Part shown: positions 1-40,141 of the stretch, piece by piece | How positions within the stretch are numbered: position 1 is the stretch's first letter | Layout: every line of letters starts with the position of its first letter | Virus record (IMG/VR): IMGVR_UViG_3300023198_000780 | Span: 1-40,141 of that record | DNA from: a virus | Length of the DNA: 40,141 bases | Reading direction: 5' to 3' (one strand) | Program-made: the position numbers and the translations under genes | The notes under the pieces: model-generated | Databases searched by the model: none | Seen by the model: the letters and a program-made list of their open reading frames with translations, nothing else | Told to the model about the DNA's origin: nothing

Positions 1-53
1 AACCACACAACTTTTAATAACATGCGGTCATAAGCCGCTGAGGAATGAAGATG
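1..53. repeat. 53-bp terminal direct repeat, left copy
   Basis: These 53 bases are identical to 40089-40141. The copy covers the last two bases of the SSB stop codon, an intergenic stretch with a small GCGG/CCGC hairpin (24-38), the ribosome binding site and the ATG of the next gene. A repeat that ends inside a gene start is best read as overlap from assembling a circular or circularly permuted genome, not as a biological terminal repeat. Confidence 0.9.
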
Positions 54-428: not shown

Positions 429-809
429 ATGAAAAGTTTTACATTAATTGAAACGATGATCTGCGTAGCGATTTTTGGGATCATAATCGCGGTAGTGGTG
501 CCGGCCGTTAACTCAATCGGAATCGAAACTAGGCCTATGATTGCCGGCGTAGTCGATAAGCACCATAAGCCGGCGCATTACACATACTCAAGCTATACAG
601 ATTCAAACGGGCGCGTACAGCAATCATCGACTTACCATGCTGCTGTGTGGCGTGTCACGACCGTCATAGAGGGTGAGCGTATTAATTGTAGTACGAGCGA
701 AGGCAAATACTCTGCCGTTTCGATTGGCGAGAAGGTTAAGATATCCGCCGGCACTGGCAGACTGTTCAAGTCTTACGTTTGCAAAGATATTATTCTGGGG
801 GATGTATGA
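429..809 (+). CDS. type IV pilin/pseudopilin-like protein
   Basis: The product has 126 residues. Residues 1-30 reproduce the type III signal of type IV prepilins: a very short basic leader (MKS), the core FTLIE at residues 4-8 with Phe+1 and Glu+5, then an unbroken hydrophobic helix ending in a Pro at about residue 25. This signal normally directs inner-membrane insertion and assembly into pili or type II secretion pseudopili. The residue before the cleavage point is Ser rather than the usual Gly, so processing may be altered. The C-terminal part (about 40-126) looks beta-rich and has two Cys (in INCS and YVCK) that could form a disulfide. It lies between a helical protein and a small membrane protein, overlapping the latter by ATGA. 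The N-terminal motif is clear; the role is inference, perhaps interference with host pili. Confidence 0.75.
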   Translation: MKSFTLIETMICVAIFGIIIAVVVPAVNSIGIETRPMIAGVVDKHHKPAHYTYSSYTDSNGRVQQSSTYHAAVWRVTTVIEGERINCSTSEGKYSAVSIGEKVKISAGTGRLFKSYVCKDIILGDV

Positions 810-25159: not shown

Positions 25160-25312
25160 TCACACCCCGTTCAATATGTCGTTTACTGCGTTAATCTTGG
25201 CTTGCTTATTAATCGTTGGATCAGTGCTATCTTTTACTAGTCGCTTGTAGTCTTCCAGCAACTCTCTTGAGACTTTAAGCTCAGTTGGTAATGGCTCACA
25301 TGCGTTAGTCAA
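25160..25312 (-). CDS. small helical protein, TTG start
   Basis: A 50-residue ORF beginning with TTG that overlaps the stop of the Lar-like gene (TTGA). The product (LKVSRELLEDYKRLVKDSTD in its middle) is helical and charged, without Cys or membrane segment, and looks like a real protein. Family not recognised. Confidence 0.5.
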   Translation of the reverse strand: MTNACEPLPTELKVSRELLEDYKRLVKDSTDPTINKQAKINAVNDILNGV

Positions 25313-25644
25313 TCGAATTCTCCTTTAGTCGCTAGTGCATGTAATGCTTCGCCTAATTGCCCTTGCCAGCAATCACCGCCAATGCACAACTGAGGCCAAT
25401 TGGACAGTTCCAGCAGCATGGCTTTCAGTCGTTCATTCTCTTCACGTAGCTGAGTGAGTTCCGGTTCATAGGCGCGAGTGTTCCAAGCTTGCCATGCTTG
25501 ACGCGTACTAGAGGCAATTACAGCGTTGCAGTCATAGCATAATATTTTATGGTATTTCCCAGTAACGTTACCTGCCATTAAAGATAAATCATTACCACCG
25601 CAAAACGGACAAGGCTTTAGTTCTTCTTTGGTCTTATCGTTCAT
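25309..25644 (-). CDS. Lar-like restriction alleviation zinc ribbon
   Basis: The product has 111 residues. ELKPCPFCGG at about 9-18 and CYDCNAVIASS at about 36-46 form the two knuckles, followed by QAWQAWNTR, which together are the signature of the Lar family of prophage Rac, whose founder counters type I restriction. The C-terminal half adds a coiled coil (LREENERLKAMLLEL) and a Cys-containing end. It is coupled to the methyltransferase gene, so the two may form an anti-restriction pair. Confidence 0.75.
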   Translation of the reverse strand: MNDKTKEELKPCPFCGGNDLSLMAGNVTGKYHKILCYDCNAVIASSTRQAWQAWNTRAYEPELTQLREENERLKAMLLELSNWPQLCIGGDCWQGQLGEALHALATKGEFD

Positions 25645-26162
25645 GATTTATGCTCCATTAATTTGCGCTCAACGGTAACTATTGTGTCATTGTGCCAACC
25701 ACCGTGTGCGACCATTAATATTTCTACTATTTCAAACCCGTTAGTCTTTCCGATTCCGCCGCTATTCCAGCCACATGTAATGACATGGCCGCCAACACTT
25801 ACAATCCTTCCTATTTCTTTTTTCATGTTGCCCCAATAGCTGGACTGTGTTGTTTTCATGTTCACCGTCTTGCCTAGCTGTTTGTAACACTCACTAACTT
25901 GTCTTGGCGAATACGGCGGGTCAAATAATACTAAATCCGCATCGGATTGGGCACGTAAAAAATCTATAGCATCCATGTGAAAGTCAGCATCTAGACTATC
26001 ATCCAAATCGTTTGTTATCGTTGATTCGGTTCGTTTTTTACCGTTGCAAAACGGGTCTAGAATAATCTTTTCGTCTGAGCAATACCGGTCTATCAAATCT
26101 GAGATTGGTTTAATACTGAATGTATCCTTGTTCGGCATTGCCCATTTACGCGATAATTTCAT
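25641..26162 (-). CDS. DNA methyltransferase, DPPY type
   Basis: The product has 173 residues. The catalytic motif IV DPPYSPRQ is at 81-88, as in N6-adenine and N4-cytosine methyltransferases. A possible SAM-binding or family block ILDPFCNGKK lies at 34-43, resembling DPFxGxG but with Asn and Lys in place of the glycines. Motif order (LDPF before DPPY) is not the usual beta-class order, and the protein is short with no target-recognition domain. It may protect phage DNA from host restriction. Confidence 0.75.
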   Translation of the reverse strand: MKLSRKWAMPNKDTFSIKPISDLIDRYCSDEKIILDPFCNGKKRTESTITNDLDDSLDADFHMDAIDFLRAQSDADLVLFDPPYSPRQVSECYKQLGKTVNMKTTQSSYWGNMKKEIGRIVSVGGHVITCGWNSGGIGKTNGFEIVEILMVAHGGWHNDTIVTVERKLMEHKS

Positions 26163-39068: not shown

Positions 39069-39618
39069 TTTAGATTTATGGAATAAGGTGTGTAAAACAG
39101 ACCCAAAACACACAAAAGCGGCAAATGTGCGAGGCAATAAAATAACTGCTATTGCGCCACAATATCAAATACTTAAGGCAACTGAGGAATTTGGGCCATA
39201 CGGCAAAACATGGGGGTTTAAGGATATATCAATCGATTTCGGATTAGCCTCAATGAATGGGGTGATTTTATTCAAAGGTATCTTCTTCTATCCAGATGGC
39301 GAATTCCCAATTATATCGAGTATTGGAGCGTATATTGATAACGCCAAAACTAAAGCAGATAACGACTTTGCAAAGAAGGTAGAGACTGACGCATTAACTA
39401 AAGCGCTGTCAAAGATAGGCTTTAACGCTGACGTGTTTATGGGGCTTTTCGATGATCATAAGTATGTGGCTGAGTTAAAAGCAGAAAAGGCAAAGCCGGT
39501 ACTTGATGATAATACTAAGGCGTGGATAGCCGCGGTGCGCGAAAACAGCGAAGCAGCTCTCACAATAGAAGACCCAGATTACAGAAAATTTATATTGGAG
39601 AACTTAGACAATGGCTAA
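39061..39618 (+). CDS. single-strand annealing protein, Rad52-like
   Basis: The product has 185 residues. LDLWNKVCKTDPKHTKAANV, then GPYGKTWGFKDISID, and ETDALTKALSKIGFNADVFM with FDDHKYV are characteristic blocks of the Rad52/22-type recombinases in phages. It would bind ssDNA and anneal complementary strands. It overlaps the exonuclease and SSB genes by 8 bp each, a standard phage recombination trio. Confidence 0.75.
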   Translation: MSNLDLWNKVCKTDPKHTKAANVRGNKITAIAPQYQILKATEEFGPYGKTWGFKDISIDFGLASMNGVILFKGIFFYPDGEFPIISSIGAYIDNAKTKADNDFAKKVETDALTKALSKIGFNADVFMGLFDDHKYVAELKAEKAKPVLDDNTKAWIAAVRENSEAALTIEDPDYRKFILENLDNG

Positions 39619-40090
39619 AGGCACAGTAAACAAAGTAATAATTTTAGGCAGGCTAGGGGCAGACCCTGAAGTTCGCACCACGGCTTCAGGAACCCAGGTT
39701 GTTAACTTGAATGTGGCAACAAACGAACTAGGCCCAAAGGAGCCTAATAATAACCAGCGTGCGGATATTACAGAATGGCACCGTGTTACGTTGTTTGGCC
39801 GCATGGCTGAGAACGCGGCGCAGTACTTAAAAAAAGGCTCGCAGGTTTATATCGAAGGTCGTTTGCAAACTCGCAAATGGCAAGACCAGCAAGGCAATGA
39901 CCGTTACTCAACGGACATCATCGGCAATGAAATGCAGTTTATTGGCGGACGGGATAGTGCACCAGCTCAGCAAGGGGGATTTACTAAGCCGTCGCAACAG
40001 CAAGCGCCACAACATCCGCCAGCTCAGCAAGCGCCACAGCAACAAGCACCGGGCGGATTTGATGATTTCGATGATGATATACCGTTCTAA
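39611..40090 (+). CDS. ssb: single-stranded DNA-binding protein
   Basis: The product has 159 residues. The OB-fold (about 1-108) shows VNKVIILGRLGADPEVR, then ADITEWHRVTLFGRMAE and YIEGRLQTRKWQDQQGNDRY, as in bacterial SSB. A Gln/Pro/Ala-rich linker follows, and the end DDFDDDIPF is the acidic tip that recruits partner proteins. It protects ssDNA during phage replication. Confidence 0.95.
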   Translation: MAKGTVNKVIILGRLGADPEVRTTASGTQVVNLNVATNELGPKEPNNNQRADITEWHRVTLFGRMAENAAQYLKKGSQVYIEGRLQTRKWQDQQGNDRYSTDIIGNEMQFIGGRDSAPAQQGGFTKPSQQQAPQHPPAQQAPQQQAPGGFDDFDDDIPF

Positions 40091-40141
40091 CCACACAACT
40101 TTTAATAACATGCGGTCATAAGCCGCTGAGGAATGAAGATG
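40089..40141. repeat. 53-bp terminal direct repeat, right copy
   Basis: Identical to positions 1-53. Joining the two copies puts SSB 50 bp ahead of the small helical gene and makes the rightward operon continuous. It supports a circular map. Confidence 0.9.

Follow-up and report, generated by a model that had tools for sequence, protein, structure and literature searches.

The open reading frame at positions 429 to 809 (+) of the window (the whole stretch of viral DNA analysed, 40,141 nucleotides) is a real, slightly unusual pairing of two known kinds of phage part, a pilin-type N-terminus and a phage domain of periplasmic type. The frame was delimited by translation (MKSFTLIETMICVAIFGIIIAVVVPAVNSIG..., also given as MKSFTLIETMICVAIFGIIIAVVVPAVNSIGIETR..., 126 aa), and its two parts were assigned by profile matches and homology. 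An earlier note had described the product as a pilin-like protein; this holds for the N-terminus and is not supported for the protein as a whole, which beyond the helix is, as judged from sequence homology, a phage domain (residues 28–123) instead of a pilin, of a type carried on ordinary anchors elsewhere.

Start, leader and pilin-type helix

The start codon is preceded by a good Shine–Dalgarno-like sequence (AAGGGGAAGG, positions 418–427, +). Upstream of 429, an in-frame TAA (417–419) is followed by GGG GAA GGT and by no alternative ATG, GTG or TTG, so the leader consists of the three residues MKS (429–437, +). The residue at −1 is Ser3, as had been noticed earlier, and its codon is AGT; GGT (Gly) lies one transition away. 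Because of this single step, and because only one contig is known, the serine may have arisen by recent mutation or through an error in the sequence. Type IV pilins and class III signal peptides are recognised by a leader of 6–26 residues, compared with three here, by Gly at −1 in bacteria (PMC4471445), where this protein has Ser3, and by a hydrophobic tract, about 21 residues long, that carries Glu5. The tract is present (residues 4–27, positions 438–509, +), and Glu8 is its fifth residue, counted from the would-be cleavage site.

The earlier statement that MKS-FTLIE and the following helix copy a prepilin signal was borne out by profile searches, in which both PF07963 (N_methyl; E 2e-5, 24.4 bits, cut-off 21.2) and TIGR02532 (NCBIfam; 18.6 bits, cut-off 16.3) scored above their cut-offs. 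Against a profile built from 13 phage pilin-like N-termini the helix reached 29.8 bits, and the best of 500 shuffles, in which residues 9–28 were permuted and FTLIE was kept, reached 22.3 bits. Since the true helix outscored every shuffle, the likeness exceeds what FTLIE and hydrophobicity provide, and the N-terminus is specifically pilin-like, with similarity running through the helix past FTLIE. When solved structures were searched with phmmer, genuine pilins ranked first, weakly (best E 0.0079). The hydrophobic Glu5 helix and the matches to both models are shared with type IV pilins and the pseudopilins of type II secretion, from which the protein differs in Ser at −1, in its three-residue leader and in the lack of a pilin head that could be recognised; the genes beside it include neither pil nor gsp.

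Whole-protein copies were found in none of the viral contigs, genome contigs or plasmids searched, and no defence-system match was obtained. One match in a genome contig (L016) was discarded as a genuine Alteromonas PilA adjoining PilC, and matches in 164 of the 394 genomes of one order were set aside as mostly N-terminal, to host pilin-type proteins.

The C-terminal domain and its relatives

Residues 28–123 (positions 510–797, +) are homologous to gp191 of Thalassavirus. The domain matched Vibrio phage Thalassa gp191 (THALASSA_191) in a tblastn search (E 4e-5, 26% identity over 96 aa), pairwise alignment gave 27% over 111 aa, and the alignment score of 117 was about 18 standard deviations above the shuffled mean (26.6, SD 5.1). 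Thalassa gp191 is linked in turn to proteins of Vibrio phages 207E48.1 and of the K362/D506 type, its score with the 207E48.1 protein being 91 versus 27.7±5.1 for shuffled sequences. The direct score between the window protein and that of 207E48.1 (41) lay inside the shuffle range, so that this link is transitive only. The gp191-like relatives belong to large Vibrio phages, namely River4, Hades, Pylo, 207E48.1 (Ackermannviridae), K362 and D506, and C87 and C118 are invariant in all of those aligned.

The homology begins where the membrane helix ends (PAVNSIGIETR aligned with IAVDSVGIDTR). The relatives share the homologous domain of about 96 residues, the two conserved cysteines and a single preceding membrane anchor; their anchor, however, is a plain transmembrane helix that follows a longer N-terminal stretch. 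Scored against the phage pilin N-terminal profile, relatives' anchors gave 0.9 and 0.1 bits, compared with 29.8 bits for the window protein; PF07963 had no match in the three gp191-relative genomes searched, and no such match was present in 12 related phage records. The position of the junction and the plain anchors of the relatives point to a phage domain placed on a pilin-type anchor, and the junction, as read from the alignment, is consistent with an anchor that was either exchanged or strongly diverged.

A domain profile of three sequences, run without a positive control, retrieved nothing from 369 genomes; a DNA pattern for the domain retrieved River4 and chance matches only; and no solved structure matched the domain profile. 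A weak match over helix and beta domain to DUF2500 (PF10694, E. coli YhhM; E 0.16, 12.9 bits versus a cut-off of 33.5) was rejected, and kinship was likewise unsupported by profile comparison with YhhM (hhalign, probability 0.2).

Two AlphaFold models of the protein were of low confidence (mean pLDDT 62.5 and 51.7). In both, a helix runs from residue 6 to about 29–30 and is followed by strands, and the first adds a helix at 110–125; neither low-confidence model contains a long helix 1 running into a pilin head. A structure search with a low-confidence model returned nothing at E≤0.001, and since both models are poor, the fold is not established by them. The earlier note had named an unrelated fold on a plain membrane anchor as one outcome that would speak against it. 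What was found comes close to this, with a phage domain and low-confidence models that lack a pilin head, but the anchor is pilin-type.

Pilin-type N-termini in other phages and in bacteria

Viral contigs were scanned for M-K-x-FTLIE, which occurred at at least 80 loci. Among the 80 matches listed, 15 open reading frames run on into a hydrophobic helix of pilin type; 14 of these begin MKGFTLIE and one MKAFTLIE (L131, whose 4-kb contig could be of host origin). A hydrophobic frame beginning MKLFTLIE (L102) was rejected, as it showed no pilin likeness past the motif. A 28-aa query against named phages gave 168 records, the weakest rows being weak. Nine proteins from these records and one from Synechococcus phage BUCT-ZZ01 were inspected, and all carry Gly at −1. 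Their leaders range from three residues upward, and the proteins of Aeh1 and AhP_Mru1, which begin MKGFTLIE, also have three-residue leaders; so short a leader, remarked on in the earlier note, is thus nothing out of the ordinary for a phage pilin-like protein, and only the serine is unusual. The queries either contained Gly at −1 or left this position free, so that the set is to be taken as a sample, not a census. When viral contigs were searched by pattern for a Ser-type residue at −1, no additional case emerged, and within the inspected sample the window protein is the only phage protein with Ser at −1 and the only one with a gp191-like domain.

Pilin-type N-termini were found in unrelated phages of Aeromonas, Vibrio, Pseudomonas, Acinetobacter, Delftia and cyanobacteria, and the likeness to pilins had already been annotated by depositors (Aeh1ORF040c, KVP40.0030, Acibel004_97 and a cyanophage “pilin”). 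An FTLIE-type N-terminal helix behind a short leader is common to the window protein, these four, Pseudomonas phage G1 orf026, the BUCT-ZZ01 protein and PHROG 3433, 11263, 10597 and 13280; all are small and lie among clusters of small phage genes. The inspected proteins of named phages differ from the window protein in their Gly at −1 and in lacking its C-terminal domain. No study on the function of phage proteins with pilin-type N-termini was found in the literature searched.

Several further observations were made on this class. In large T4-like phages of Aeromonas there are proteins of 27–29 aa that consist of an MKG leader and the pilin helix alone (viral contigs L068, L122, L105 and L088; Aeh1, L174, positions 601–687). 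A second small family in unrelated phages joins a GFTLIE-type anchor to an RCxxGxxF...GxGVxC-like module (L123, L077 and L083; BUCT-ZZ01, L183, positions 396–647). In Vibrio phage 033B (Queuovirinae), a pilin-like protein of 157 aa, as long as a complete pilin, is annotated only as hypothetical (L180, positions 1492–1965); its gene adjoins those of the small terminase and an amidase.

The canonical motif (xFTLIE-hydrophobic-M) was also searched in gammaproteobacterial genomes, from the class to which an Alteromonas belongs. It was found with Gly at −1 in 75 of 94 genomes and with AGY-coded Ser at −1 in none of 369.

Genomic setting and interpretation

Given its 53-bp terminal direct repeat (window positions 1–53 and 40,089–40,141), the contig of about 40.1 kb probably represents a circular assembly that is complete. 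Recognisable gene products are portal, terminase, head-closure, DNA-transfer and tail proteins; no tyrosine integrase was found, which makes a lytic life likely for this phage. On the circle, the gene for a single-strand DNA binding protein (SSB; 39,611–40,090, +) lies just upstream of a cluster at 45–1179, in which the pilin-type gene is the second open reading frame past SSB. It is preceded by a 98-aa frame without family (45–341, +) and followed by genes for a 46-aa membrane protein (806–946, +; phrog_19184, E 3e-4) and a 78-aa protein with CxxC pairs (943–1179, +), each start overlapping the preceding stop as ATGA. These plus-strand genes converge on the endolysin side. The protein is missing from the two nearest phages by neighbouring gene (L006 and L007). 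In the closest of them (L006; phrog_2524 protein, 84% identity) the slot holds a different 54-aa membrane protein, and from this comparison of gene order the position looks like a variable accessory site. Elsewhere in the window (25,309–26,162, −) a gene for a Lar-like restriction alleviation protein adjoins a DNA methyltransferase gene; these are likely counter-restriction genes.

The best explanation, on which our confidence is evenly divided, is an inner-membrane-anchored, periplasmic accessory protein with a role in the envelope, whose anchor was swapped to an uncleaved pilin-type helix. Its expression would probably coincide with that of the early or middle genes on the SSB side. The short MKS leader would remain in the cytoplasm and residues 4–27 would cross the inner membrane; a prepilin N-terminus alone is enough to insert a protein into the membrane and leave its C-terminus outside (review, PMC4471445). 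The small, mostly beta domain, for which the pilin-type helix would have replaced the ordinary anchor of gp191-like proteins, would then lie on the periplasmic side with its two conserved cysteines probably joined in a disulfide. Processing depends critically on Gly at −1 (PMC4471445), and PilE1 with Ser in its place went unprocessed (PMC6497953); with its own Ser there, the window protein should escape cleavage by prepilin peptidase and would stay membrane-bound and outside any filament. The likely use would be an alteration of the infected cell's envelope by the periplasmic domain, for example in superinfection exclusion. Against reading the helix as a plain anchor, so close a match to pilins would then have no obvious reason, and by analogy the 28-aa protein of Aeh1, a pilin N-terminus only, suggests that the helix itself is active in other phages.

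The main rival, which we consider rather unlikely, is a natural uncleavable prepilin mimic, with Ser for Gly at −1 and a fused phage periplasmic domain, that during infection would act as a dominant negative on the host's machinery for type IV pili or for type II secretion: it would join the membrane pool of pilins, occupy prepilin peptidase or the assembly platform, stop filament growth and so exclude pilus-dependent phages. The specificity of the helix with its Glu5 and the recurrence of pilin-type N-termini among unrelated phages are in keeping with this, as is a precedent in Streptococcus sanguinis, where PilE1 G−1S was unprocessed and the G−1S major pilin led to fewer filaments of the partner pilin, an effect read by the authors as dominant-negative (PMC6497953). 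Phages are also known to block pili through other means (D3112 Gp05, Aqs1 and Pf4 pVII; PMC11436027). The other inspected phage proteins nevertheless keep Gly at −1, so uncleavability is no shared strategy, and the attached gp191-like domain is used on plain anchors elsewhere. That same Gly in the sister proteins is compatible with a functional pilin-type protein, processed as a minor subunit of a pilus or pseudopilus, in which Ser is tolerated by the host peptidase or the true sequence reads Gly; the single AGT–GGT transition in the one metagenomic contig known, together with Glu5, which is important for assembly, would fit as well. This is doubtful: Gly at −1 is reported to be critical (review, PMC4471445), P. 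aeruginosa lost processing with residues larger than Ala (work cited in PMC6497953), and the low-confidence models predict neither a pilin-like head nor a long second half to helix 1. Hydrophobic helices can achieve weak scores with pilin profiles, and an ordinary transmembrane helix might have drifted into FTLIE by chance; with two curated models above cut-off, all 500 FTLIE-keeping shuffles outscored and no such match in the 12 related phage records, this is very improbable.

By pairing a pilin-type helix with the domain of a plain-anchor family, the window protein could help to tell a role as anchor only from the targeting of the pilus machine. Phage pilin-type mini-proteins, some of them nearly the helix alone, may as a class merit more attention than this protein itself.
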